From a virus, in the IMG/VR virus record IMGVR_UViG_3300037852_000028, positions 1 through 20,878 of that record: DNA of 20,878 bases; one strand, 5' to 3'. The position numbers were made by a program, and so were the translations under genes. Under the pieces are notes generated by a model. The model ran no database searches. It had not been told where the DNA came from and saw only the letters and a program-made list of their open reading frames with translations. The first letter of the stretch is position 1. Each line of letters starts with the position of its first letter. Positions 2,160 through 18,951 of this stretch are shown piece by piece.

Positions 2160-3044
2160 TCATCCCTCCACTTCGATATTCAGCTTCTCACATAGAGCAA
2201 GCAGCCCCTTCTCATAGTTCTCAGGAACCTTCCAAGCTACTTTGCCAGTCTGTTTCGACTTAATGAACTTGCAATCCGTGTCCTCGAAGAACGTCTGAAG
2301 CTGTGGCACGGCGATTAGCCCGGAAGCCAGGATGTAATGGCCGTTATAGTCCTCTGGCCGGGTGATAATAAGCTTCTTTTCCGGCTCGACCTGGCTCATT
2401 GCGTCGATAGCAGACGGTACGCCACGACTAGCAGCTTCGGCTACCTTGTTCGACGCGATCTTGCGCTGTTTCTCTTTGCCTTCCTCGAAAGTGACGGTGC
2501 CATGCTCCTCGACATCATTTCCGATGGGCAGGTTGAAGATGTTGATAATGGCGTACTTCCGGCATCCAGTCATGGCCTTGTAAATAGATTTGTCGGTTGA
2601 ATCGTAGCCATCCCCTCGGAACACATACTCCCGGTGATCTGAGTTTTCCGTATCCTCCAGAGTCCAGCGCATCGTTACGCCTGAGATATAGCCGCTTCGC
2701 CCTGTAATTCCATCCTTGCCGGTTCGCTCATGGATGATCCGCTCACTAGCTATGACCTCGCCGATCAAGATAAGCTTGTTCGCGGTCATCAGCTTATTTA
2801 CAGCTACGACGGCATCCTCGATTCGGAGATAATTACCGCCGCCCATTTCGGAGCCGAACTTGCCCTGTTTCTTGACCACGCCGACGCGATCCTGGATTTC
2901 AAGTATCTTCTGAGCGAGCGTTTTGGGCTTTTCGGCTGGCGCTTCGGCTCGTTCGATGTAAGAGGTCGCAGGCTTGTTTTCTTTCACGAATTCCCCCCTG
3001 TCACCGGCGGCATTCTGCACAGGGAAATTACCGGGAGTGTTCAT
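2160..3044 (-). CDS. erf: ERF-family single-strand DNA annealing recombinase
   Basis: 294 aa. ERF proteins anneal complementary single strands during phage recombination and repair, often circularising the incoming genome. Residues 42-185 form the ERF domain: an opening helix (LAQKILEIQDRVGVVKKQG), the NYLRIEDAV segment near 71, and the diagnostic block GDGYDSTDKSIYKAMTG (144-160) followed by KYAIINIFNLPIGND. The first 40 residues are Pro/Ala/Glu-rich and probably disordered. Residues 228-294 look like a separate small domain, unlike the short tail of a minimal ERF protein. GGAGG lies four bases before the ATG, which overlaps the stop of the zinc-motif gene (ATGA). No partner exonuclease or SSB is visible nearby. 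Confidence 0.9.
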   Translation of the reverse strand: MNTPGNFPVQNAAGDRGEFVKENKPATSYIERAEAPAEKPKTLAQKILEIQDRVGVVKKQGKFGSEMGGGNYLRIEDAVVAVNKLMTANKLILIGEVIASERIIHERTGKDGITGRSGYISGVTMRWTLEDTENSDHREYVFRGDGYDSTDKSIYKAMTGCRKYAIINIFNLPIGNDVEEHGTVTFEEGKEKQRKIASNKVAEAASRGVPSAIDAMSQVEPEKKLIITRPEDYNGHYILASGLIAVPQLQTFFEDTDCKFIKSKQTGKVAWKVPENYEKGLLALCEKLNIEVEG

Positions 3045-3845: not shown

Positions 3846-3982
3846 GGACGCCTCCGATTGACGCAATGAGCATCGAATTTCGGGCACAGAGACCGGGAAC
3901 CAGGCTCAAAGCGCACCACCTTGACGATTGGGCGCATCGGGCAGCCAGAAGCAAGTAATACGAGAATCAGAATTGATTTCAT
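3842..3982 (-). CDS. 46-aa predicted lipoprotein
   Basis: ATG at 3982, TGA at 3844-3842; both ends are in ATGA overlaps with neighbours. The peptide MKSILILVLLASGC has a Lys, a hydrophobic core and a lipobox-like ASGC ending at Cys14, so signal peptidase II cleavage would leave a lipidated peptide of about 33 residues rich in Arg/Lys, with two further Cys (33 and 40). It is too short and too Pro-poor to be a typical Rz1 outer-membrane spanin. Small early phage lipoproteins that block receptors are known (T5 Llp, for example), which is a possible parallel only. No strong Shine-Dalgarno is seen, so translation probably depends on coupling to the HTH gene. Confidence 0.65.
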   Translation of the reverse strand: MKSILILVLLASGCPMRPIVKVVRFEPGSRSLCPKFDAHCVNRRRP

Positions 3983-4155
3983 GGTTTTATCACCCAATCC
4001 GATACGATCTCTTTCGAGATATGCCAGACCTTGCGCTTGCCAGAGCCGAGCTTGACAGCTGGGAGCTTGCCCGCATAAATGAGCTTGTAAAGCGACGTGA
4101 CATCTCGGCCAGTCAATCGAGCGAACTCATAAACGCCAATTTTTCCGTTGTCCAT
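3979..4155 (-). CDS. Small helix-turn-helix DNA-binding protein (excisionase/MerR-like)
   Basis: 58 aa, the first gene of the leftward operon. The sequence MDNGKIGVYEFARLTGRDVT, then SLYKLIYAGKLPAVKLG, then KVWHISKEIVSDWV follows the winged-helix layout of phage excisionase/MerR-type domains: a first helix, a recognition helix with the usual Y-x-L-I-x2-G-x-L-P turn, a beta wing and a closing helix with the D-W pair. Such proteins bind DNA as small regulators or recombination directionality factors. No integrase is visible, so a role as operon autoregulator is more likely here. There is no Shine-Dalgarno; the promoter predicts a transcript starting at or next to the ATG. TGA overlaps the lipoprotein start. 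Confidence 0.8.
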   Translation of the reverse strand: MDNGKIGVYEFARLTGRDVTSLYKLIYAGKLPAVKLGSGKRKVWHISKEIVSDWVIKP

Positions 4156-4522: not shown

Positions 4523-4688
4523 ACTCGACCAATCGACAGGCCAAGTCTCGGTAAATGGCCCAATCGACCAGACATTATTCTGCCTAGGCGTGTTAGAACT
4601 AGCCAAGAACGCGATCCTCGATCACGCTAAACACTCGAAGAATCAGATACTTGTCGCTCGACCGGCGATTAGCTTGGTGAAGCAATGA
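4500..4688 (+). CDS. Hypothetical phage protein (62 aa)
   Basis: 62 aa. The sequence MNPKLTLELDQSTGQVSVNG, then PIDQTLFCLGVLELAKNAI, has the layout of small phage proteins in which a beta hairpin with a VNGPI turn is followed by a helix; I know such proteins only as hypothetical. The start has no strong Shine-Dalgarno, and the gene overlaps the previous one by 23 bases. Its TGA overlaps the ATG of the next gene (ATGA), supporting expression in an operon. Confidence 0.65.
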   Translation: MNPKLTLELDQSTGQVSVNGPIDQTLFCLGVLELAKNAILDHAKHSKNQILVARPAISLVKQ

Positions 4689-4852
4689 AGTGGTCGGCCC
4701 AATTAACTAGCGCATTCATAGAAGATTATGTGCTCATCTCAGCAGTGCCACGCAATTTCTCACCATCGGCTATCTTGGCAGAAGCATTGGAGTTGTTCAT
4801 CGAATCACCGACAATGGATTTCGTCCAATATCACATTGAGGAGCTTCGATAA
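4685..4852 (+). CDS. Hypothetical small protein (55 aa)
   Basis: 55 aa, unrecognised: MKWSAQLTSAFIEDYVLISA, then a PRNFSPSAI turn, then helices LAEALELFIES and MDFVQYHIEELR. It starts in an ATGA overlap with the previous gene and ends TAA at 4850-4852, sharing its last base with the next ATG (TAATG). The end of the gene also carries GAGGAG, which serves as the next gene's ribosome binding site. Helical and mildly acidic, with no signal or membrane segment. Confidence 0.65.
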   Translation: MKWSAQLTSAFIEDYVLISAVPRNFSPSAILAEALELFIESPTMDFVQYHIEELR

Positions 4853-5016
4853 TGATCTACATGCTCATGGGCGCTTTAATCGGCACAGCAATTAGCCTTC
4901 ATATCACCTGGCCGAGAGCACAACGAATCGATTGGGAAGCGATAATGCGCGAATATCAACACGATTTCGATAATCAGCATTTGATCCTAAAGGAGTTATC
5001 GACACGTGTTCGTTAA
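4852..5016 (+). CDS. N-terminally membrane-anchored small protein (54 aa)
   Basis: ATG at 4852 is eight bases after GAGGAG. The first ~19 residues (MIYMLMGALIGTAISLHIT) are hydrophobic and would form one membrane helix; the rest is a charged helix (IDWEAIMREYQHDFDNQHLI) that could be a coiled coil. The layout resembles a very short inner-membrane spanin, but size and position do not prove it, and no lysis genes are nearby. Its last 11 bases overlap the next gene. Confidence 0.65.
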   Translation: MIYMLMGALIGTAISLHITWPRAQRIDWEAIMREYQHDFDNQHLILKELSTRVR

Positions 5017-5206
5017 GGGCCAATCCGGTAATCCTTCAGGTGTAACGAAGGCATTGGCTCTTGGCGACCAAAGCCTCACCAATTTGGTTGGGCCTCAAGA
5101 AAATAGTTTGCAATCAATTGAAACGATTAGGCTTGTTGAAGAGTGGCAATCGCAAGCTCACCTGACAATTGACTTAGAGCAAGATTGTCGAAATTCAGCG
5201 CAATGA
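5006..5206 (+). CDS. DUF5681-like small protein (66 aa)
   Basis: 66 aa from a GTG start at 5006, ten bases after AAGGAG. The N-terminus VKGQSGNPSG is the hallmark of DUF5681-type phage proteins, whose usual opening is KGQSGNPxG followed by basic residues; in phages these are often found near packaging genes. Here the motif is followed by a short acidic helical tail instead of a longer terminase-small-subunit-like body. No other candidate for a small terminase subunit is obvious in the window, so that role is possible but unproven. Confidence 0.6.
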   Translation: MFVKGQSGNPSGVTKALALGDQSLTNLVGPQENSLQSIETIRLVEEWQSQAHLTIDLEQDCRNSAQ

Positions 5207-6744: not shown

Positions 6745-7263
6745 ATGACAACCCTGGCGCAGCACGCCCAAGTCACGAACGACGGGCAGAACAACGACTT
6801 TCTCCACTACACCGCGTCGAGCGGGCAGATTCTCTATGCCATTAACTCCTCGGGCAACACTTCCATATCGGGCGGCGTGGCGCTTGTCGGCCTCGGCCAG
6901 CCTTCCATCGTCTACACTCTGAGCGCGAGCCTGGGATTCGCGGTGTGGAATGCGGCGGCGGCGGTGAACATGCTTCCCACCACCGTTCCAACCGGCACGT
7001 ATCGCATTTCCCTGTACCTCGTTACGACTACCGCTTTTGTAACGAATACAGAAGAGGTGATTACGTTCGGATGGACCGATGACGACCAGGCCCAGACGCT
7101 TGCGTTTACGACTTCGGCAAAATCGGCTGGTACGACACTCGTTGGTTCTCAGTTGATTCGTGTGGTAACGAGTACGGCAGTGACCTATACCCCGTCAGTG
7201 ACGGGATCGAACGCCACGGCAGGTGTCAACGCCGTATCTATCGTTGTGGAAAGGCTTATATGA
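6745..7263 (+). CDS. Putative jelly-roll virion protein (172 aa)
   Basis: 172 aa. The second half has the look of a C1q/TNF-like or related jelly-roll sandwich: GTYRISLYLVTTTAFV, VITFGWTDDDQAQTLAF and a final strand, GVNAVSIVVERL. Such domains form trimers in phage decoration and fibre proteins. GGAGAG lies six bases before the ATG and overlaps the end of the previous gene. The TGA overlaps the ATG of the next gene, so the three genes appear translationally coupled. The virion role is inferred from composition and position. Confidence 0.75.
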   Translation: MTTLAQHAQVTNDGQNNDFLHYTASSGQILYAINSSGNTSISGGVALVGLGQPSIVYTLSASLGFAVWNAAAAVNMLPTTVPTGTYRISLYLVTTTAFVTNTEEVITFGWTDDDQAQTLAFTTSAKSAGTTLVGSQLIRVVTSTAVTYTPSVTGSNATAGVNAVSIVVERLI

Positions 7264-7916
7264 GTTCAGCACCATTCAGTTTGCCGCAGTTCGGAGTCAG
7301 TCTCAAAGGCAAGGCCACGAATCTTGCGCAGGGCACGCAAGCGCAGATCGGCATCGACCAGTTCAACGCTCAGACGGTTTCCCAAGTCGGGATGCCGTAT
7401 GGGTTTATGACCCTTGCCGGACTCATGTGCACGGGCACCTGGCCCGCCGCCGCCGCCGCCGCTTTGTCGGCCACGGCGCTATCGGCTTGGGCGCTCTATA
7501 ACCCGGCAGGTTCGAACGTCAACATTCACCTCCAGAGCATTACGGCGGTGATGACAGCCTTCACCGCTCAGGCCGCATCCTCGGCAGTCGGAATCGTTCC
7601 TTTTTCCCAAACTCCAACCTCCACCACCACGACCGGCACAGCCAAAGCTAATTGCCTCATCGGGACGGGAAACGCAGTGCAGGGCATCCAGTACGTGACC
7701 GGGACCACGGTTGGCGCGGTGACGGTGCCGATACGCTGGATCGGCGGCATTTACACGGACCTGGCCGCCGGGGATACGCCTGCGACATTGCACGATGAAA
7801 TCGCAGGGTCGATGATTATCCCTCCCGGCAGCGGTATTCAGATTGGCGCGGTTGGCGGCACGGTGGCCGACCTCACCATCGCTGTCAGCATGACCTGGGC
7901 CGAAATCCCGGTGTAG
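7260..7916 (+). CDS. Putative virion surface protein (218 aa)
   Basis: 218 aa. It contains LYNPAGSNVNIHLQ near the middle and a C-terminal part with DEIAGSMIIPPGSGIQIGA followed by VSMTWAEIPV. I recognise this pattern (an N-P-x-G-S segment, a P-P-G turn, and a closing TW-x-E-x-P-V) from phage head-associated proteins of unknown role. A GCC run at about 7442-7461 encodes a six-Ala stretch in the first third. The start overlaps the previous stop (ATGA), with GGAAAGG five bases upstream. It is probably a capsid-associated protein; no enzyme motif is seen. Confidence 0.75.
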   Translation: MSSAPFSLPQFGVSLKGKATNLAQGTQAQIGIDQFNAQTVSQVGMPYGFMTLAGLMCTGTWPAAAAAALSATALSAWALYNPAGSNVNIHLQSITAVMTAFTAQAASSAVGIVPFSQTPTSTTTTGTAKANCLIGTGNAVQGIQYVTGTTVGAVTVPIRWIGGIYTDLAAGDTPATLHDEIAGSMIIPPGSGIQIGAVGGTVADLTIAVSMTWAEIPV

Positions 7917-7919
7917 CGA

Positions 7920-8255
7920 ATGCCATTCAAAAGCCTTGCTCAGGAAGGGTATCTTCACGCCCACCCTGAAATCCTGGGCAAGGCTGGCCTTAAAGAGTGG
8001 GACTCGGCCACGAAAGGAAAACACTTGCCAAAACATGCCAAGCACGGATTCACGCATTCCGAGATCAAGCACCACCACGACGGAAGCCACACCGTAACCC
8101 ATCACCACGTAGACCCATCGAAGACTGTAGAGCATGCCGTTCCCGATCTTGCCGGGGCGCAGGACTCGCTCGAGCAGCACATCGGCGCTGGCGCGCAGGC
8201 GACTGAACCGCCTCCCATGCAAGCGGCTCCCGGAGGGATGCCCGGTGCCGCGTAA
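7920..8255 (+). CDS. His-rich small phage protein, apparently two joined modules (111 aa)
   Basis: 111 aa. Residues 1-40 (MPFKSLAQEGYLHAHPEILG, then KEWDSATKGKHLP) match a short module often seen as a separate small phage protein. Residues 43-89 contain GFTHSEIKHHHDGSHTVTHH, then HVDPSKTVEHAVPDL and SLEQHIG, a His-rich module also known to me as a stand-alone phage protein. The tail is Pro/Gly/Ala-rich. The many His residues suggest metal binding, but this is inference. The start has no strong ribosome binding site; the gene follows the preceding stop by three bases. Its position before the terminase is typical for both modules. Confidence 0.75.
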   Translation: MPFKSLAQEGYLHAHPEILGKAGLKEWDSATKGKHLPKHAKHGFTHSEIKHHHDGSHTVTHHHVDPSKTVEHAVPDLAGAQDSLEQHIGAGAQATEPPPMQAAPGGMPGAA

Positions 8256-8418
8256 GAAGATGAAGCTCAAGATTCACAAGGGCGGATTCCATGAATGGCT
8301 CGGGAAGAAAGAGGGCCAGAAGATTACCGCCGCCGACATCGCCAAAGGTAAATCCGCTGGAGGCCATGCCGCGAAGATGGCCGTATTCGCGCAGAACGCG
8401 AAGTCGTGGAACCACTAG
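8245..8418 (+). CDS. Small conserved phage protein next to terminase (57 aa)
   Basis: 57 aa from GTG 8245, eight bases after GGAGG; the frame is open further upstream, but those residues lie antisense-like within the previous gene. A second possible start is ATG 8260. The sequence KGGFHEWLGKKEGQKITAAD ... GKSAGGHAAKMAVFAQNAKSWNH fits the known small phage protein pattern of a G-x-L-H-x2-LG-x3-G-x2-I-x core and a basic helix ending in FA-x-NA-x-x-W-x-H. It is strongly basic, so nucleic-acid contact is possible. Function unknown. It overlaps the previous gene by 11 bases and the terminase gene by 13. Confidence 0.75.
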   Translation: MPRKKMKLKIHKGGFHEWLGKKEGQKITAADIAKGKSAGGHAAKMAVFAQNAKSWNH

Positions 8419-10223
8419 AAGAATCCAAAGTCCCCGAAGCTCCCCGACCCTCGGCCCTCCCCGATGGATGCACGAATGAGTCGTACTACAAGTCGGAAGC
8501 CCGTCCGCTCTACCAATTAAAACCTCTGTGGAAGAAATTCGGGGACGAAATCTCCTTCAAGATGTGGCTCGATTTCCGGGACAGGTGCAGGAAAGATTTG
8601 TTCTGGCTCGGCAAGTATGTTCTCAAAAAGGATTTAACCAGGTGGCACCTTATCCCCTGCTTTCGAATGTTCGTGCAAAAGAACTTCGATGGAGTCTATA
8701 AACTCGGCTATTCCATCGGGGACGTTCATGCCGCGATTGGAGCGCAGAAGCGGGTCAAGGAGATGCTGTTCCTTGCTTCCCGCGGCAGTTTTAAGTCAAC
8801 GCTCGACGGGATTGATTCGGTGCAGTGGATGCTCAACTGCCCGGATATTCGCATTTTGATCCTGACCGGGGAATATAAGCTGGCTCTCGCGTTCATGTCG
8901 GAAATCAAGGGTTACTTCTACCGGGCTGAAAAAGCCCCCGCTACGTTTCTTCACAAGCTGTTCCCCGAATACATCCTCGAAGGCAAGGACGGGACATCCG
9001 ACCAACCCCTCGAATGTCCCGCCCGGATACACAACCAGAAAGAACCAAGCCTGTGGGTCAACGCGATTGTGGCGAACCTGTCGGGCTGGCATTGCGACAT
9101 CCGCAAGATGGATGATGTAATCACGGATGAGAACTGCAACTCGGTGGATGCGCGGGGGCCCGAAGGAAAACTCAAAAAGAAGATTGATGGCACCGATAAT
9201 CTCGTCGATGAGTGGGGCTTCACCGACATCATCGGGACGCCTTACTACACGGACGACTATTATGCCGAACGCCTGAAAGCCCCGCCCGAGGAAGCGCCTC
9301 TTATCTTTGGTAAGTTTCCTTGCTGGCAGATCAAAAAGCCGTTCATCGGGACGCCAATCAAGGAGCTAAAAGAGGAGATGGTTGATCTTCTCTTCCCCGA
9401 AAAGCTGACCTTCAAATCGCTTCGCCAGAAGCTGATGAAGAACGAGACTCTCTTCCGCTGCCAGCAACTATGCGAACCGGCGGCGGAGGGCGAAAGCATC
9501 ACCTTCACGGAGTCGATGCTCAAGGCGCATCTCGTGATGGAAGCGCCGCACGCCGAAGGCGATATTTACACGACCTGGGACACCTCGTTTGCCAGAACAT
9601 CGTACGCCGATTATTCCGCAGGCGTAGCGGTAAAGATCATTCCCCGAGAAGGCAAGAGTTTCGACGCTTACATCATGGAGATTGTGTTCGGCAGGTGGCG
9701 GCCTTCCGAACTTGCGTTTCAGTATGTGATGTTTGAAAAGAAGTGGAAACCGAAGGCATCGCTCATTGAACGTCCCGCCGGAGATGAACTGCTTCGCATT
9801 GAACTTCAGAGACAGGCGCAGAAGCATTCCGTGGCCCTCAACATCATCTGGAAGAACGTCTCGAATAACAAGGACTCGAAACGCAATCAGATCAAAGGCA
9901 TCGAGACGCTCATTTCAAATGACCAACTCTGGTTCGTCGGCGGACAGTGGATCGACGAAACTTTCAACCAGTTCATGCGCTACACCGGAGAACCGAAGAA
10001 CAAGGGACGGAAGGATGACATCCCGGATGCCGTCTCGCAGATTCAATTCTTCTGCCCATTCACTTCCGGGAACGAGGAACTCGAACGCCTGAAGAAAGAG
10101 CGGGAACAGAAAGCCGATCAACTCGCCATCTATAGTCATATCTTCGAGCGGCCCAACAAGCCCGCGCCCATCATTCCTCCGGTTCCGATGCGTCAGAGAT
10201 TATTTGGGAGCCTTGCCAGATGA
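8406..10223 (+). CDS. terL: Phage terminase large subunit
   Basis: 605 aa. It is the ATPase/nuclease motor that packages DNA into the prohead through the portal. The ATPase half has a Walker A-type loop, ASRGSFKST (124-132); a Walker B region ending in DD (236-237, RKMDDVITDEN); and a coupling segment, IGTPYY (276-281). The nuclease half has WDTSFARTSYADYSAG with the first Asp at 392, LIERPAG with Glu455, and KDDIPDAV with Asp537/538 and Asp541, giving the acidic RNase H-like centre. Phe129 replaces the usual Gly before the Walker Lys, a variant seen in several podovirus terminases. The start is GTG 8406, with a weak ribosome binding site. No separate small subunit is obvious. Confidence 0.92.
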   Translation: MEPLEESKVPEAPRPSALPDGCTNESYYKSEARPLYQLKPLWKKFGDEISFKMWLDFRDRCRKDLFWLGKYVLKKDLTRWHLIPCFRMFVQKNFDGVYKLGYSIGDVHAAIGAQKRVKEMLFLASRGSFKSTLDGIDSVQWMLNCPDIRILILTGEYKLALAFMSEIKGYFYRAEKAPATFLHKLFPEYILEGKDGTSDQPLECPARIHNQKEPSLWVNAIVANLSGWHCDIRKMDDVITDENCNSVDARGPEGKLKKKIDGTDNLVDEWGFTDIIGTPYYTDDYYAERLKAPPEEAPLIFGKFPCWQIKKPFIGTPIKELKEEMVDLLFPEKLTFKSLRQKLMKNETLFRCQQLCEPAAEGESITFTESMLKAHLVMEAPHAEGDIYTTWDTSFARTSYADYSAGVAVKIIPREGKSFDAYIMEIVFGRWRPSELAFQYVMFEKKWKPKASLIERPAGDELLRIELQRQAQKHSVALNIIWKNVSNNKDSKRNQIKGIETLISNDQLWFVGGQWIDETFNQFMRYTGEPKNKGRKDDIPDAVSQIQFFCPFTSGNEELERLKKEREQKADQLAIYSHIFERPNKPAPIIPPVPMRQRLFGSLAR

Positions 10224-10414
10224 TTCCAGTGGAAATTATTGATCTACTGAAAACCGATAAGAAAGACCAAATTATTGGCCGATACGAATTATCTGAGCAA
10301 TCAGCCAAAGCCCTTGACTTTCCGTTGTGTGCCGATGGTGTGCTGAGAATTTCTGCACTCTATTGGGAAGTTATGATTCCAGAAGCCAAGTCCATGTTTG
10401 AGAAAGTATCTTGA
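10220..10414 (+). CDS. Low-GC accessory gene between terminase and portal (64 aa)
   Basis: 64 aa, unrecognised. It begins MIPVEIIDLLKTDKKDQIIG, continues through RYELSEQSAKALDFPLC, and ends in LYWEVMIPEAKSMFEKVS. Its ATG overlaps the terminase stop (ATGA) and its TGA overlaps the portal's TTG start (TTGA). Hand-counted GC is 79 of 195 bases (about 40%), well under the flanking structural genes. It has no part in the usual terminase-portal pair, so it looks like an acquired accessory gene carried in the late operon. An anti-host or exclusion protein is possible; nothing in the sequence proves it. Confidence 0.75.
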   Translation: MIPVEIIDLLKTDKKDQIIGRYELSEQSAKALDFPLCADGVLRISALYWEVMIPEAKSMFEKVS

Positions 10415-12465
10415 GCACCAAGCCAGCCGCAGTCATCGACAAGACCAACACCCGCTACAACGCCGAAACCGGAACGCACGATTTCGACGATGACGCGGCC
10501 TTGAAGTTGGTGCTTGATGATCTGACTGAAACCGATACGTGGATGAACCTTCAGCAATGGCCTAGCCGGTGGCTAGATTCGATCATGCTCCAGCAGTCTC
10601 CGGTATCGGGATTCGATGACATCGCCAAGATGTCGGTGCCGAAGTTCACGCTCTCGAATACGGTCGCCACGCTTGTCAGCAAGATCATCCTGGGAATGTT
10701 TTACGACGATCCGCCATTCGTCCTTCGCCCGCGCCCGAATACCGATCCGAATGTCACTAGAGCCAAGACCGCTCTTTTCTCTTATCAGCTGGACGAGATG
10801 AAGTTTCAGGAAGAAATCGAATCTGGTTGGGAGTTTCTGGCGCTTCTCGGGACGGGGATTTGGAAGTGGGGATTCTGCAACAAGAAAAAGAAAGTCACGA
10901 CATTCAAGGCGAAGGAAAATCCGACCCCAGTTGACACTCCGTTCACAACGGAGCAAGTCCATACTCCCGATTCGATGGAATTTGAGGAAGTAATCGAAGA
11001 GAAGGATGTCGCGCATCCGTGGCTGAAGGCTTGCGACATTCGAAATGTCAGGGTATGCAAAGGCACAAGGCGCGGCGATATTCGCAAGGCCAAGTTCGTC
11101 ATCCACAGCGAATATCCGACCTGGGATGAACTCCAAGACCTTGCGGAAGAGGAAGACTACGATTTGCCGGATCGAGAGACGCTTGAGCGGTTCTTTCTTG
11201 AACGCTCTACCACTCCTCCTGGCGATAACCTGACCATCACACTTCCCGAGAACATGCGCGGATATTTGCAGACTGCGACTCCGAGAAATCTCAAGGATAG
11301 CGCCAATCCTTTCGATAACGGAATCGAACTGGTCGAACGGGTCGATCCAAAGCACAAGATGGTCGTCATTCGCGTGGGCGGAGAGCATAACTTCATCGTC
11401 TACAATGGGCCGAACCGATACGGCAAGATTAATTACTACTCCTCGAACTGGCGCAATCTTCCCGATGCGTTTTATGGTCAGGGACTCGGGCAACTCATTG
11501 GTTCCGAGCAAATGGTTGAGCAGGGGACAACGGCTCTTGCGCTCGGGATGCTGGCCTATGGACTTCAGCCTACCGCGATTCGAAAAAAAGGATTCAACGC
11601 CATCAGCCAACCTACCGTCTGGGAGCAGGGAGGCATCATTGATGTGGAAGACGATGTGGACAAGGCTTTCAAGTTCATGGAGTTTCCTAACGTCCCTGCG
11701 GAGGCTTGGCAAGCCATTCAGCTTTCGAAGGCCGACTCCGCCGAAACCAGCGGAGCCAATCAGCAAACTTCGATGGGATCTGGAGCAAGTGGAGTCAAGA
11801 CTACAGGAATGCGATCAGGAACGGGGGCTGCTCTTGTTGGTCAGGCAAGCGCTTCTCGACTCGATGGCCCGGTCGAACGCTTCATCCGGCAAGTATTTGT
11901 ACCCTGGCTCTACCAAATGGACGAGCTGAACAACAAGCTCCTACCCACAAAGATTCTGAACGATGTGCTCGGGGAAGAGATCGGCCAGGAGTTCAGGGTC
12001 GATCACATCAAGTTCCGCAACGCCAAGATGGAGTTCGATGTACTCGCGGGCGCGCACCTCGGCGCGAAGAAAGAGCAGGCTCAATTCCTGCCGTTTGTCA
12101 TGCAACTGGTCAACAATCCGACGCTCATGGAGCAGGCTGCCGAGCAAGGTCTGAATTTCAACTTCAAGGCATGGTTTGATGCGTTCTCCGACCTTGCGGG
12201 ATACAGCTTCGCGCAGAACTTCTTTACCAAGATGACTCCGGCGCAACAGCAACGCAGGCAGGCGAACTCCCCGGCGGGAGTCGCGGCGCAAAAGAATCAG
12301 GCGACGCAGAATCAGCAAGTTCAGAAGTTCCAGCAGGAGCAGCAGCTTCTCGATCAAGAGCAACTCGGCAAGGGCGCAAATGAATCGGAGCGCATCATCC
12401 TCGAACATGTTTTGGATCAGGGACTAGAAGGCGGCGAAGGCACCTTCGGAACGGCGGAACAATGA
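10411..12465 (+). CDS. Portal protein (podovirus type)
   Basis: 684 aa, long like the P22-type portals. The portal is the dodecameric ring at one capsid vertex through which DNA enters and to which the tail attaches. Position directly after the terminase, size, and features such as the central DAFYGQGLGQLIGSEQMVEQ (near 350-370) helix-turn region support this. A mid-section contains GTGAALVGQASASRLDGPVE, and the end is Gln-rich (AQQQRRQ, then QNQQVQKFQQEQQLL) like the coiled barrel of P22-like portals. The start is TTG 10411, overlapping the preceding stop, with only GAGAAAG as a ribosome binding site. The subfamily is not certain. Confidence 0.85.
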   Translation: MSTKPAAVIDKTNTRYNAETGTHDFDDDAALKLVLDDLTETDTWMNLQQWPSRWLDSIMLQQSPVSGFDDIAKMSVPKFTLSNTVATLVSKIILGMFYDDPPFVLRPRPNTDPNVTRAKTALFSYQLDEMKFQEEIESGWEFLALLGTGIWKWGFCNKKKKVTTFKAKENPTPVDTPFTTEQVHTPDSMEFEEVIEEKDVAHPWLKACDIRNVRVCKGTRRGDIRKAKFVIHSEYPTWDELQDLAEEEDYDLPDRETLERFFLERSTTPPGDNLTITLPENMRGYLQTATPRNLKDSANPFDNGIELVERVDPKHKMVVIRVGGEHNFIVYNGPNRYGKINYYSSNWRNLPDAFYGQGLGQLIGSEQMVEQGTTALALGMLAYGLQPTAIRKKGFNAISQPTVWEQGGIIDVEDDVDKAFKFMEFPNVPAEAWQAIQLSKADSAETSGANQQTSMGSGASGVKTTGMRSGTGAALVGQASASRLDGPVERFIRQVFVPWLYQMDELNNKLLPTKILNDVLGEEIGQEFRVDHIKFRNAKMEFDVLAGAHLGAKKEQAQFLPFVMQLVNNPTLMEQAAEQGLNFNFKAWFDAFSDLAGYSFAQNFFTKMTPAQQQRRQANSPAGVAAQKNQATQNQQVQKFQQEQQLLDQEQLGKGANESERIILEHVLDQGLEGGEGTFGTAEQ

Positions 12466-12686
12466 AAATTACTTTTGATATTCGAAGTAAAAATCTCCTT
12501 TTTGAAAATGAGGTGGGGATAACAGACATTGGATTTCCTATTCAAAATCTCTTGGATGAAATGAAAAATCCCACACTCGAATGCGAAGTGAACGTGTGTC
12601 CAATTCGCGGAATAATAAGCGAAGGGAATGTTTGCTTATCTTTTGAATACACTAACGATGGTTCACTTTCATGGAGCCGTCAATGA
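12462..12686 (+). CDS. Low-GC accessory gene after portal (74 aa)
   Basis: 74 aa, unrecognised, beta-rich and acidic: MKITFDIRSKNLLFENEVGI, then a helix NLLDEMKNP, then LECEVNVCPIRGIISEG, ending LSFEYTNDGSLSWSRQ. GC by hand count is 82 of 225 bases (about 36%), the lowest of any gene here. ATGA overlaps tie it to the portal stop and, through ATGATG, to the next gene. The alternating strand pattern and two Cys would suit a small globular immunity- or inhibitor-like protein, but this is only a shape argument. It looks inserted into the structural operon. Confidence 0.75.
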   Translation: MKITFDIRSKNLLFENEVGITDIGFPIQNLLDEMKNPTLECEVNVCPIRGIISEGNVCLSFEYTNDGSLSWSRQ

Positions 12687-13015
12687 TGGACCTGTCGAAA
12701 GTCTTTCTTGGCGAGTATCTGACTCAGACCGAGCGCCTCTATCTCAGGTCGCTCCCCGATCATGATGGATTTACAGTGCTCAAGAAACTCTTCGATCAGG
12801 TCTGCCGCCTTGCGCACGAGGATGTAGTGAAACTCGATCCAGAAGACCAGCAATATGAGAAGAAGCTTGCGGTTCGCGTGCAAAGAGAAAGGTATTTCAA
12901 CGAGTTTGCGGGATGCATCATCAAGAGTTTCAATGCTAACGTAAAGATCGCCAATGACATAGAGAAAAAGGAGAAACACAATGCCGGAACAAATTCAAGA
13001 CCAGAAGCCAACTGA
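12683..13015 (+). CDS. Helical protein between portal and scaffold (110 aa)
   Basis: 110 aa from ATG 12683, which overlaps the previous stop and has GGAG six bases upstream; a Met four codons earlier (12671) is in frame but lies within the preceding gene. The sequence is strongly helical: KVFLGEYLTQTERLYLRSL, DGFTVLKKLFDQVCRLAHED, then QQYEKKLAVRVQRERYFNEF. It could be a small capsid-assembly or head-completion protein given its position, but no family is recognised. The last 35 bases overlap the scaffold-like gene, whose own ribosome binding site is inside this gene. Confidence 0.75.
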   Translation: MMDLSKVFLGEYLTQTERLYLRSLPDHDGFTVLKKLFDQVCRLAHEDVVKLDPEDQQYEKKLAVRVQRERYFNEFAGCIIKSFNANVKIANDIEKKEKHNAGTNSRPEAN

Positions 13016-13807: not shown

Positions 13808-14851
13808 ATGGCAGGTCCGAATCCATCGGCAGCAAACAGCGGAAACCTACTCACGGCACAAGCCATCGAGTTCGATTCCGAGCTGATCCCGAACCTAAAG
13901 TCCAACACCAACGCCTTCATGCAGGCGGCGGTCAAGCGGGTACAGGGCGAGGGAACAGGTATTAACCGCACGTTCTTCCAGTACGAGGAACTCGGCGCTC
14001 AACTCTTCCCCACAACGGATGGCGCGGTCGGCTCTCCGACATTCGTGGGCCAGATTTCACTCCCGGCGCAGGTCGGCGAGTGGAACAATTTCGGCAACTT
14101 CTCGGCAATGTCGGTCTATGCGGCAGTCGATGATGTGGTCGGAAACTCGGCCATCGAGGCGAGTTACCAGGTCGGCCAGACCATCAGCGAACTCTATGCC
14201 GAGGAACTCGACGCGGCATCGACAAGCGATTCGAACGTCAACCAGTCCTCGCTTCTTTCTTCTCCCTACACCATGAACCTTCCGACCATTCGAACGATGA
14301 AACAGCAACTCGTTTCGATTGGCGTGCTCCCGCCTCCGGGACACGGTGGACGGTTCTGCGGCCAGATCAGCCCGAACGTATTGGGCGACCTCTGGAACGG
14401 AACCACGGTCAACGCCTCGGCGATTGACTTCTGGAAGTACACGGCGGCAGGTCAGGAGATGTACGACAAGATGGCTGGTCAGGTCGATCAGAACTTGGAG
14501 ATCGAGTTGCCCGGCACAGGAGTCGTGTTCTATCAGACGCCTTTCGTCCTGAAGACCGCGAGCTACCAATCTGGCAGCTTGACCGCCTATCGGACCTACA
14601 TTTGCGGCCACTATGCCCTGATCGGCGTGTGGCTGAACGTCCCAGGCGATACGGAACTCGGAGACGGGAACTGGAAGACCATCGATTGCCACGTTGTAAC
14701 GGATGCGCCTTCATCGGTCTATGATCCTCCGGCAACTATCGGTGCATGGTGGATGTGGAGATTTCATCAGACTGTGACAACGCCTCCGGTTTACGGGACC
14801 GTGAACAGCCAGCGCGTGCGGTATGCGGATTCGGTTCCAGCCATTCAATGA
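13808..14851 (+). CDS. Major capsid protein, HK97 fold (N4gp56-like)
   Basis: 347 aa. It is expected to form the icosahedral shell. The sequence follows the N4gp56-type capsid layout: an N-terminal LTAQAIEFDSELIPNLKSN region, a mid-section VGEWNNFGNFSAMSVYAAVDD, then a spine-like helix (SAIEASYQVGQTISELYAEEL), and a beta-rich C-terminal half with FYQTPFVLKTASYQ and GHYALIGVWLNVPG. AGGAG lies eight bases before the ATG. It follows the scaffold-like gene by 14 bases; its stop overlaps the next start (ATGA). The family assignment is by eye, while the capsid role is well supported by context. Confidence 0.8.
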   Translation: MAGPNPSAANSGNLLTAQAIEFDSELIPNLKSNTNAFMQAAVKRVQGEGTGINRTFFQYEELGAQLFPTTDGAVGSPTFVGQISLPAQVGEWNNFGNFSAMSVYAAVDDVVGNSAIEASYQVGQTISELYAEELDAASTSDSNVNQSSLLSSPYTMNLPTIRTMKQQLVSIGVLPPPGHGGRFCGQISPNVLGDLWNGTTVNASAIDFWKYTAAGQEMYDKMAGQVDQNLEIELPGTGVVFYQTPFVLKTASYQSGSLTAYRTYICGHYALIGVWLNVPGDTELGDGNWKTIDCHVVTDAPSSVYDPPATIGAWWMWRFHQTVTTPPVYGTVNSQRVRYADSVPAIQ

Positions 14852-16016: not shown

Positions 16017-16688
16017 ATGTCCAGCCGCACCTATCCAGCGCTGAATACGAATAGCACGTTCACGGGATTCGAGTCATTTCCTGGGGGAACGAGTTTAGGT
16101 CTACGTTCACTTGCTTTTACCGTGAGCGGCACATTCACAATTCCCGCTGTTTTGTTGAAAATAACAGTTATCGGTGCTGGCGGTGCCGGTGGCGGATCGA
16201 ATGGCTCGAATTGTGGAACAGGAGGCGGCGCTGGGGGCAATGCGATTGCATGGTTGTCGGCGCTCACGATTGGCGGAACGCTTACAGTCACAATAGGAAG
16301 CGGAGGGGCAGGAGTATCGGCAGGTACCGGAGGGACGGGAGTTGCCACGACCGTCACTTCGGGAACGCAGGCCATTTCCACGATTACAGCAAATGGAGGT
16401 GCTGGAGGAACGGCCAACTCTACCGGAGGGAACGGCGGCGGAGTTGGCGGAACAGCGAGCGGTGGAAATATCAATGTAACAGGGGCGCAAGGTTCTTATA
16501 CGACAGCCGGAACAGTAGGCGTGCAAGGTGCGAACTCGATTTACGGAGCAGGTGGCAACTCTGCGGCAGGGGCAGCAGGAAACGCAGCGACCGGATACGG
16601 ATCAGGCGGCGGCGGCGCTCAAGGCACAGGCCCTTTCGCTGGTGGCGCTGGGGCGGCTGGAATCGTTATTTTCGAATGGGTGGCTTAA
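16017..16688 (+). CDS. Glycine-rich tail surface protein (223 aa)
   Basis: 223 aa. It matches the phage glycine-rich domain pattern: FTVSGTFTIPAVLLKITVIG leads into GAGGAGGGSNGSN, then GGAGGNAIAWLSALTIGGTL and a TVTIGSGGAG strand, and it finishes with a long Gly/Ala/Ser/Thr run and a closing strand, GIVIFEWVA. Such domains, with stacked Gly-rich helices, occur at tips of phage fibres and adhesins and can contact the host receptor. GGGAGG lies four bases upstream of the ATG. The Gly run makes it likely to vary between relatives. Confidence 0.8.
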   Translation: MSSRTYPALNTNSTFTGFESFPGGTSLGLRSLAFTVSGTFTIPAVLLKITVIGAGGAGGGSNGSNCGTGGGAGGNAIAWLSALTIGGTLTVTIGSGGAGVSAGTGGTGVATTVTSGTQAISTITANGGAGGTANSTGGNGGGVGGTASGGNINVTGAQGSYTTAGTVGVQGANSIYGAGGNSAAGAAGNAATGYGSGGGGAQGTGPFAGGAGAAGIVIFEWVA

Positions 16689-18050: not shown

Positions 18051-18761
18051 TTGGCTTCGACGATCCAGCTTCAGAACACCGTAAATTGGGCTTCTGCATT
18101 TATCGAGTTCGAGGTACCGACGCTTGGCACTGCAAATGAGCCTTCGATTACGAGTGCCAACACGGTCATGCAAACGATTCTCGGACCTCCCTTCAAATGG
18201 AGTTTCAATCGCGCGACCGTTCCATTCACAACGACAGGCGGAAATCAAGATACGAAAGTGGCCGTCTCTAATTTCGGTTTCATCGAATCCGCGAGTGCTA
18301 CTAGCGGAAATACCACTTTCGCATTCAAGGAAGTCAAACAGGAACTCACGATTGGCACGGAACCAGCAAGGCCGCAATCCATCGCGGCGCAGTTCGATGA
18401 CAATGCGGGCAATATCACGTTCCGATGTCTTCCGGTGCCAGATAAGGCATATGTAGTGACTGTGACATACCAGCAAGCGCCGCCCGCTCTCTTTTCGGCG
18501 CTTTCGACAACTTGGACACCAATCCCCGACAAGTACTCTTACATCTACAACTACGGATTCCTCGCGCTCACGATGGCCTATGACGATGATCCGAGGTTTC
18601 CACTCTTCAACCAGAAGTTTGTCGCGCATCTGCTCGGAACGCAGCAAGGACTGACCGAGACGGAGCGGAACCTGTTTATCGACACATGGAATCTGATCGC
18701 CCGACAGGAAGCACTAATGGGGATTAAGACGCAACAAGGGAGGCAAGCGCTTGGGACCTGA
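18051..18761 (+). CDS. Second tail adaptor-like protein (236 aa)
   Basis: 236 aa from TTG 18051, directly after the previous TAA. The C-terminal part has the pattern seen in tail tubular/adaptor proteins: VPDKAYVVTVTYQQAPPALF, then PIPDKYSYIYNYGFLALTMA, YDDDPRFPLF and a final helical stretch ending in a basic tail. The N-terminal half is beta-rich (TTGGNQDTKVAVSNFGFIES). It would join the portal to the tail or form the tube, next to the tail protein at 18951. The final 11 bases overlap the next gene. Confidence 0.7.
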   Translation: MASTIQLQNTVNWASAFIEFEVPTLGTANEPSITSANTVMQTILGPPFKWSFNRATVPFTTTGGNQDTKVAVSNFGFIESASATSGNTTFAFKEVKQELTIGTEPARPQSIAAQFDDNAGNITFRCLPVPDKAYVVTVTYQQAPPALFSALSTTWTPIPDKYSYIYNYGFLALTMAYDDDPRFPLFNQKFVAHLLGTQQGLTETERNLFIDTWNLIARQEALMGIKTQQGRQALGT

Positions 18762-18951
18762 ACCGATTTTAACATCCGATAAATGGAAAGATACACTTGG
18801 AACGATAAAAGTTTTCTTCCACGAAGAAAAAGGCCCATATATAACTTTCGGTGAAACAAGATTGGGAGAGCGTGGTTGGATTGCCGTGGTTTTAGATTCA
18901 AAAGGAGAAATTGATTTTCGAGCAGTGAAGCTACCTTCTTCTGGATTTTAA
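18751..18951 (+). CDS. Low-GC accessory gene before the tail protein (66 aa)
   Basis: 66 aa from TTG 18751, seven bases after GGGAGG. It overlaps the previous gene by 11 bases and the next ATG by one (TAATG). Hand-counted GC is 78 of 201 bases (about 39%). The sequence (EPILTSDKWKDTLGTIKVFF, GPYITFGETRLGERGWIAVV) is a small mixed alpha/beta protein with a WIAVVLDSKGEIDF strand-turn-strand; not recognised. With the genes at 10220 and 12462 it forms a class of low-GC cassettes inserted between structural genes by overlapping codons. Confidence 0.75.
   Translation: MGPEPILTSDKWKDTLGTIKVFFHEEKGPYITFGETRLGERGWIAVVLDSKGEIDFRAVKLPSSGF

Follow-up and report, generated by a model that had tools for sequence, protein, structure and literature searches.

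A small orphan gene at the terminase–portal joint of a virus late operon: a probable horizontally gained cargo with a possible counter-defence role

Introduction

The closest published architecture to the locus described here is the anti-Tab/Tab pair of Pseudomonas phage JBD26, in which small accessory genes sit within the packaging module of the late operon. In the available portions of that report, anti-Tab (atab, gp30) is a late-operon gene that overlaps terS by 1 bp and lies between terS and terL, and it encodes a counter-defence protein whose timing is set by its position (PMC10884400). Tab is described in the same portions as having no similarity to known families, and it is expressed from the prophage, from its own promoter on the opposite strand. 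According to those portions, anti-Tab is dispensable together with tab, and phages with terminases more than 90% identical lack both (PMC10884400). A second point of comparison is provided by phage morons and single-gene mosaic swaps, such as Brujita 65 and Island3 68 in mycobacteriophages; typical morons, as presented in the accessible part of that paper, bring their own promoter and terminator (PMC3029335).

Here we describe a 64-residue gene between terL and the portal gene of virus record IMGVR_UViG_3300037852_000028. The whole 20,878-base record was analysed and is referred to as the window; its late operon runs on the plus strand. Set against these partial accounts, the 64-aa gene resembles anti-Tab in overlapping the preceding packaging gene. 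The two loci differ in site, since anti-Tab/Tab occupies the terS–terL position with tab on the opposite strand, and in content, since JBD26 carries a defence/counter-defence pair whereas the slot in the window holds one ORF alone. No sequence link to anti-Tab was found among 50,697 phage records, a set that may or may not include JBD26. Like Brujita 65 and Island3 68, as these appear in the source, the 64-aa gene is a single orphan, added or exchanged where two genes meet, that sets close relatives apart. Unlike the typical morons of that source, it is wedged in by start/stop overlaps, with neither promoter nor terminator seen. It is an orphan of a familiar type, an accessory phage gene located at a joint of the mosaic.

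Results

A coding-like, AT-rich ORF shares its ends with terL and portal

Coordinates and assignments for the main features of the window are given in Table 1. The ATGA at 10220–10223 is common to the terL stop and the start of the 64-aa ORF, and the TTGA at 10411–10414 is common to the stop of the ORF and the portal start. An earlier note on this DNA had described a 64-aa gene of about 40% GC held between terminase and portal by these overlaps. Both joints are exact, the GC content agrees, and profile searches bear out the identities of the two flanking genes. The 57% GC that the note gave for a sample of the capsid gene (14041–14100) was measured as 56.7%, with the whole capsid gene at 57.6%. 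A major capsid candidate (phrog_1357, E 2e-4) and the SU10-type adaptor gene also belong to this plus-strand late operon.

Table 1. Positions of the 64-aa gene, its neighbours and other features of the window discussed in the text
Feature	Position	Strand	Remarks
ERF-type single-strand annealing recombinase	2160..3044	-	PF04404 E 3.7e-7; phrog_155 E 2.3e-17
terL (terminase large subunit)	8406..10223	+	phrog_38 E 1.3e-36; Terminase_6C E 1.2e-5
GGGAG SD-like site for the 64-aa gene	10206..10210	+	inside terL 3' end
64-aa accessory orphan gene	10220..10414	+	40.5% GC; absent or replaced in relatives
Portal, SU10 type	10411..12465	+	SU10_portal PF23899 E 7.6e-13; start codon TTG
Second junction-precise small ORF, 74 aa	12462..12686	+	36.4% GC, GC3 30.7; follows portal, before the next gene; CAATGA either side; missing in G1
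SU10-type adaptor gene	18051-18761		PF24175 E 3.7e-7
SD site AAGGGAGG for the 66-aa ORF	18736..18743	+	adaptor gene 3' end; duplex -11.3 kcal/mol
Third junction-precise small ORF, 66 aa	18751..18951	+	38.8% GC, GC3 25.4; after SU10-type adaptor gene; TTG start; missing in G1, G3, G4

The 64-aa ORF stands apart from the rest of the late operon in base composition. Its third-position GC is 38.5%, against 46.9–74.8% across 15 other late genes, and none of 748 windows of 195 nt within those genes falls to 40.5% GC or below (minimum 43.6%). As is typical of morons, its composition is thus unlike that of the host genome. Codon choice, corrected for amino-acid content, is mildly unusual, with 79 of 749 core 64-codon windows scoring as low as the ORF or lower. 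This puts the ORF at the low end of the core-gene range, which counts against a simple reading as a foreign gene. Because small ORFs at 4685–5206 of the same phage are likewise AT-rich (44–45% GC), low GC need not imply a distant donor.

The ORF is coding-like. Dinucleotide shuffling of its interior left the frame open in only 0.8% of 5000 trials, and the remaining two plus-strand frames across it contain 4 and 5 stops. Minus-strand ORFs of 45 and 65 aa at the junction are unsupported. The case that the ORF is functional rests on its openness and placement, because there is no homologue against which purifying selection could be gauged. An exact 10-nt direct repeat, ATGATTCCAG, occurs at 10220–10229, over the start codon, and at 10373–10382 inside the gene; it repeats the residues MIP and may be due to chance.

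The gene is absent or replaced at the same junction in relatives

The closest relative of the window is IMGVR_UViG_3300027867_000044 (G1, entered as both L002 and G001); two further relatives, G3 and G4, are entries G003 and G004. G1 and the window share 98.5% amino-acid identity in terL and 97.8% in portal, yet a different ORF lies between them in G1, of 60 codons and 37% GC, with the same start and stop joints as the window ORF. The two DNAs are alike through the ATGAT of the start codon and then again from the portal's TGAGCACC. The difference is a swap with an unrelated ORF beside 98% identical neighbours, with its joints on start and stop codons. Both proteins begin with MI-VE-I, and homology between them was rejected when 429 of 1000 shuffles reached their BLOSUM62 local score. 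The G1 protein carries a Walker-A-like GKRASGKTT and has weak P-loop matches, including the small P-loop proteins phrog_11652 and phrog_4404 (E 9e-4 and 0.12); the window protein, unlike these, has neither a Walker A motif nor a match. The swap is visible against G1 only, at about 90% nucleotide identity, and may reflect one gain followed by replacement, or two gains.

We surveyed the junction in 68 contig entries, from which ten loci repeating a record had been removed. Sixty show the junction, and in six of these the gap sequence is identical to that of another entry. No gene occupies the junction in 52 of the 60, and 8 have an occupant. Absence of the gene in these fragments is trustworthy because both flanking genes were required. 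In L003, a 70% relative, the terL stop and the portal start share an ATGA with nothing between them. A search with a DNA pattern for the C-terminus of terL matched the two contigs already known and no others. Other occupants share the slot with the 64-aa gene. In L011 it is a C5-methylase-like ORF (PF00145 E 1.9e-5) with ATGA at both ends, which is not AT-rich (57.7% GC against 57.4% for its locus). GIY-YIG/NUMOD3 endonucleases are present in L037, L038 (repeated by L057) and L044, and the L034 ORF is HNH-like by eye, with no Pfam match. These are enzyme-like ORFs of 151–261 aa, and the nucleases carry leaders, unlike the 64-aa gene.

Wherever the junction could be seen in the relatives examined, the 64-aa gene is absent or has been replaced by an unrelated ORF. 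It is therefore present in one genome and absent from a close relative (G1), with its flanks contiguous elsewhere (L003 and the rest of the 52 empty junctions), a pattern expected of morons. The earlier note had proposed an acquired accessory gene, to be abandoned if the same gene with the same GC were found in all close relatives; the comparison went the other way, and together with the AT-rich composition it upholds the proposal. The 64-aa gene is accessory, exchangeable cargo and no fixed part of the virus.

Translation signals suggest that the gene is expressed with the late operon

The GGGAG site in the 3' end of terL has an anti-SD duplex energy of -6.5 kcal/mol for the window gene, and the values are -6.8 in G1 and -6.5 for the G3 portal. 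In G3 the same GGGAG site stands directly before portal, which suggests that the 64-aa cargo has taken over a ribosome-binding site that once served portal. L003 runs counter to this, since the site is missing there (-2.4) though portal directly follows terL. The window portal's own SD is weak (-2.7) and its start codon is TTG, where G1 and L003 have ATG; the weak site and the TTG start make it plausible that ribosomes restart at portal after the stop of the 64-aa ORF.

No promoter-like site was found in 9900–12900, a span in which host promoters may be of another type, and a single terminator-like site falls within the ORF, on the opposite (minus) strand. The promoter and terminator that a typical moron brings were thus not seen, which is a weak test given that the host promoter type may differ. 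Since no promoter-like site lies nearby, the 64-aa protein should be made late. Ribosomes would start on the ORF from the terL-embedded site that formerly served portal, finish at TTGA and in part restart at the portal TTG, keeping production in step with terminase and portal. This supports the earlier suggestion that the gene borrows late-operon translation.

Other small ORFs and insertions at gene joints

Between the window and G1, the late region shows about 82–92% nucleotide identity per block, and discontinuities of at least 100 bases fall at gene joints. Two of these joints in the window carry the 74-aa and 66-aa ORFs listed in Table 1. The adaptor C-terminal residues are identical in the window and G1, and synonymous differences remove AAGGGAGG in G1. 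That such differences create a strong SD site in the window argues for translation of the 66-aa ORF. An 8-nt direct repeat, GATTTTAA, lies close to each end of the insertion that carries the 66-aa ORF (18765–18772 and 18944–18951). G1 in turn has a 72-codon ORF of 45.7% GC, missing in the window, between the genes at 7260–7916 and 7920–8255; it extends 62 nt into the next gene and is less neat than the other joint ORFs.

A pairwise list of insertions was restricted to pairs aligned over 2500 bases or more, counting pieces of 200 bases or longer with 72% identity or more, and 20 inserts were chosen by eye for a short gap on one side or a position at the terL–portal joint. Judged by eye, 5 of the 20 (three in the window, one in G1 and one in L016) contain an ORF whose start and stop each lie no more than about 10 nt from an end of the insert. 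In most of the rest, an endonuclease ORF follows a leader, and others have no convincing ORF. Among the clean insertions in this clade, small ORFs that fit start and stop codons exactly are in the minority.

Several of the individual insertions merit description. At L016:699–920, a 71-aa ORF of 47.7% GC almost fills an insertion relative to L007. AT-rich LAGLIDADG-type insertions absent from relatives occur at L013:12168–13105, L044:7311–7945 and L026:7004–7657, assigned by Pfam in L013 and by eye in L044 and L026; their leaders are about 90–106 nt, and they may represent group I introns or free-standing genes. Insertions of endonuclease VII-like (PF02945) genes, with 42–43% GC, are present at L007:1169–1847 and L025:9994–10464, and an ORF in L022 and L026 resembles them by eye.

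Elsewhere in the window, a glycine-rich tail-fibre-like gene (16017–16688; Gly_rich_2 E 6.3e-12, phrog_863 E 1.4e-21) is 57% identical to its G1 counterpart while its neighbours are 97% identical, which suggests that this putative host-contact protein changes rapidly. The minus strand carries an HTH_17 protein at 3979–4155 with excisionase-like PHROG matches (E about 1e-3), and an alanine-rich ORF at 307–1215 with AAAYADAAE-type repeats, over which long ORFs arise in other frames; the latter weakly matches phrog_3416 (E 4e-5), of unknown function. No integrase was identified among the window products scanned against Pfam and PHROGs, and Rfam and tRNA scans gave nothing informative.

The 64-aa protein has no match to a known family or fold

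As the earlier note had it, the 64-aa protein belongs to no recognised family: it has no match in Pfam, PHROGs, NCBIfam or PDB sequences, none beyond chance in plasmids (tblastn), and none in viral or genome contigs. A tblastn search of the 50,697 phage records returned only two rows, both at E = 3 and from one phage. Matches in SSU5 and an Enterobacter plasmid (E 3 and 1) fall within a gene of roughly 278 codons that follows a major capsid gene, and were treated as chance, and a PADLOC match to PDC-M07A (E 0.008), covering 42 residues of a 321-position model, was treated as noise. No Pfam or NCBIfam match to a free-standing homing endonuclease domain (HNH, GIY-YIG, LAGLIDADG) was found. Viral contigs searched with the small ORFs gave nothing except the G1 ORF's own contig; genome contigs searched with the 64-aa ORF and portal, and phage records searched with the other small ORFs, were uninformative.

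A single-sequence AlphaFold2 model of the 64-aa protein has a mean pLDDT of 73.8 and a pTM of 0.54. The predicted fold has a helix at 4–10, a strand at 20–23, a helix at 26–31 and strands at 41–44 and 49–52. Foldseek and VIA-align gave no fold match, and no sequence or fold likeness to anti-CRISPR or anti-restriction proteins emerged from general libraries searched with this single-sequence model. The model of the 74-aa ORF (pLDDT 56.5) was too low in confidence for a fold search.

Discussion

The 64-aa gene is probably a dispensable, horizontally gained and promoterless cargo of the late (packaging and head) operon at the terL–portal joint, possibly with a counter-defence role. The cargo would have entered, or been exchanged, precisely where the terL stop codon and the portal start codon overlap, and the likeliest route of arrival would be ERF-mediated annealing with selection for intact reading. 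Because an ERF-type recombinase is encoded in the window, annealing-based exchange is a fair guess; recombinases of this class make mosaics between diverged phage sequences, according to the available sections of one report (PMC3945230). The short joints (4–6 nt) suit illegitimate exchange followed by selection equally well, a route proposed for mycobacteriophages in the accessible part of PMC3029335. Direct-repeat duplication or transposition was considered and rejected, as the ends carry nothing beyond ATGA/TTGA (CAATGA at the second site) and lack terminal inverted repeats. Terminal inverted repeats of the MPME type were likewise not seen, the only candidate being a 9-nt pair of which one arm falls beyond the insert. 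We found no paper on this exact pattern of junction-precise small-ORF insertion in the literature searched.

As to what the protein does, the chances are about even that it acts in some interaction with a host or a competitor. The narrower proposal, by analogy with anti-Tab, is a counter-defence factor needed, for example, when the packaging proteins appear, and this we put forward tentatively. A late counter-defence or host-interaction role is favoured because of the anti-Tab parallel and the methylase in the L011 slot. Its serious rival is selfish or neutral cargo of no benefit to the phage, for instance a passenger of the homing endonucleases that use the junction, which we regard as somewhat unlikely. 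GIY-YIG and HNH-like genes do occupy the same junction in relatives, and most of the longer clean insertions in the clade are endonuclease genes. However, the 64-aa ORF matches no nuclease family and has no leader, its start-to-left-end distance being -4 nt against 66–106 nt in several endonuclease-type inserts, and the presence of three such ORFs in so compact a genome suggests that they are retained. A superinfection-exclusion or competitor-blocking protein made without a promoter of its own is an improbable reading. Small accessory phage genes in or near the packaging module can block competitors, as the available portions of two reports describe for Tab (PMC10884400) and Tai (PMC11364771), but Tab in that account is expressed from the prophage by its own opposite-strand promoter (PMC10884400), and no promoter-like site was found here, where host promoters may differ. 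Nor was an integrase identified among the scanned products, though an excisionase-like HTH protein is encoded. The function put forward in the earlier note, an anti-defence or superinfection protein, gained no support from the sequence, profile and fold searches, which gave no homologue, no fold match and no defence-family match above noise. Since a promoterless late-operon gene would be made late, constitutive exclusion is the less likely half of that pairing.

The gpW gene of phage lambda, 68 residues long, lies between terminase and portal. The size and slot of the 64-aa ORF equal those of lambda W, and by this analogy the product might be a small virion or head-completion protein. That reading is very improbable. 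The window has no PF02831 match at E ≤ 10, the protein has no Pfam or PHROG match, and an SU10-type adaptor is already encoded. The gene is also not conserved among close relatives, being replaced by an unrelated ORF in the 98% relative G1 and absent from L003 and most others. We rejected a gpW-like virion component on the missing PF02831 match together with the swap, and the match to a known virion component that would have overturned the earlier note did not appear. A spurious ORF or assembly artefact is hardly credible. The sequence is a single copy from a metagenomic virus contig and has no homologue, but its frame is open where only a small fraction of shuffles stay open, its joints with both neighbours are exact, and a separate contig (G1) has the same architecture around a different ORF.

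The preferred account, promoterless cargo at the terL–portal joint, can be extended to a bolder proposal, which we consider a long shot. Start/stop overlaps such as ATGA would be ready-made acceptor joints, into which any ATG-to-TGA ORF could be dropped or exchanged by short-homology annealing with its neighbours undisturbed. The terL–portal joint would then be a privileged slot for late inhibitors that hide or shield TerL and portal from sensors like Avs, and the 64-aa protein and the G1 60-aa protein would be alternatives matched to different host defences. Avs proteins recognise exactly TerL and portal, as stated in the accessible portion of PMC11364771.

The window and G1, about 90% identical in late-region DNA, differ by small ORFs at four gene joints. 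The locus gains interest from its clean exchange against a near-identical phage and from the two sister insertions in one 20-kb window, and the two phages together supply defined orphan genes and empty alleles for the study of counter-defence. They also offer a natural case of how single genes enter a compact operon with translation unbroken. Should the terL–portal slot prove to be a general site for cargo, the genes found there would make a compact candidate list of anti-defence proteins.
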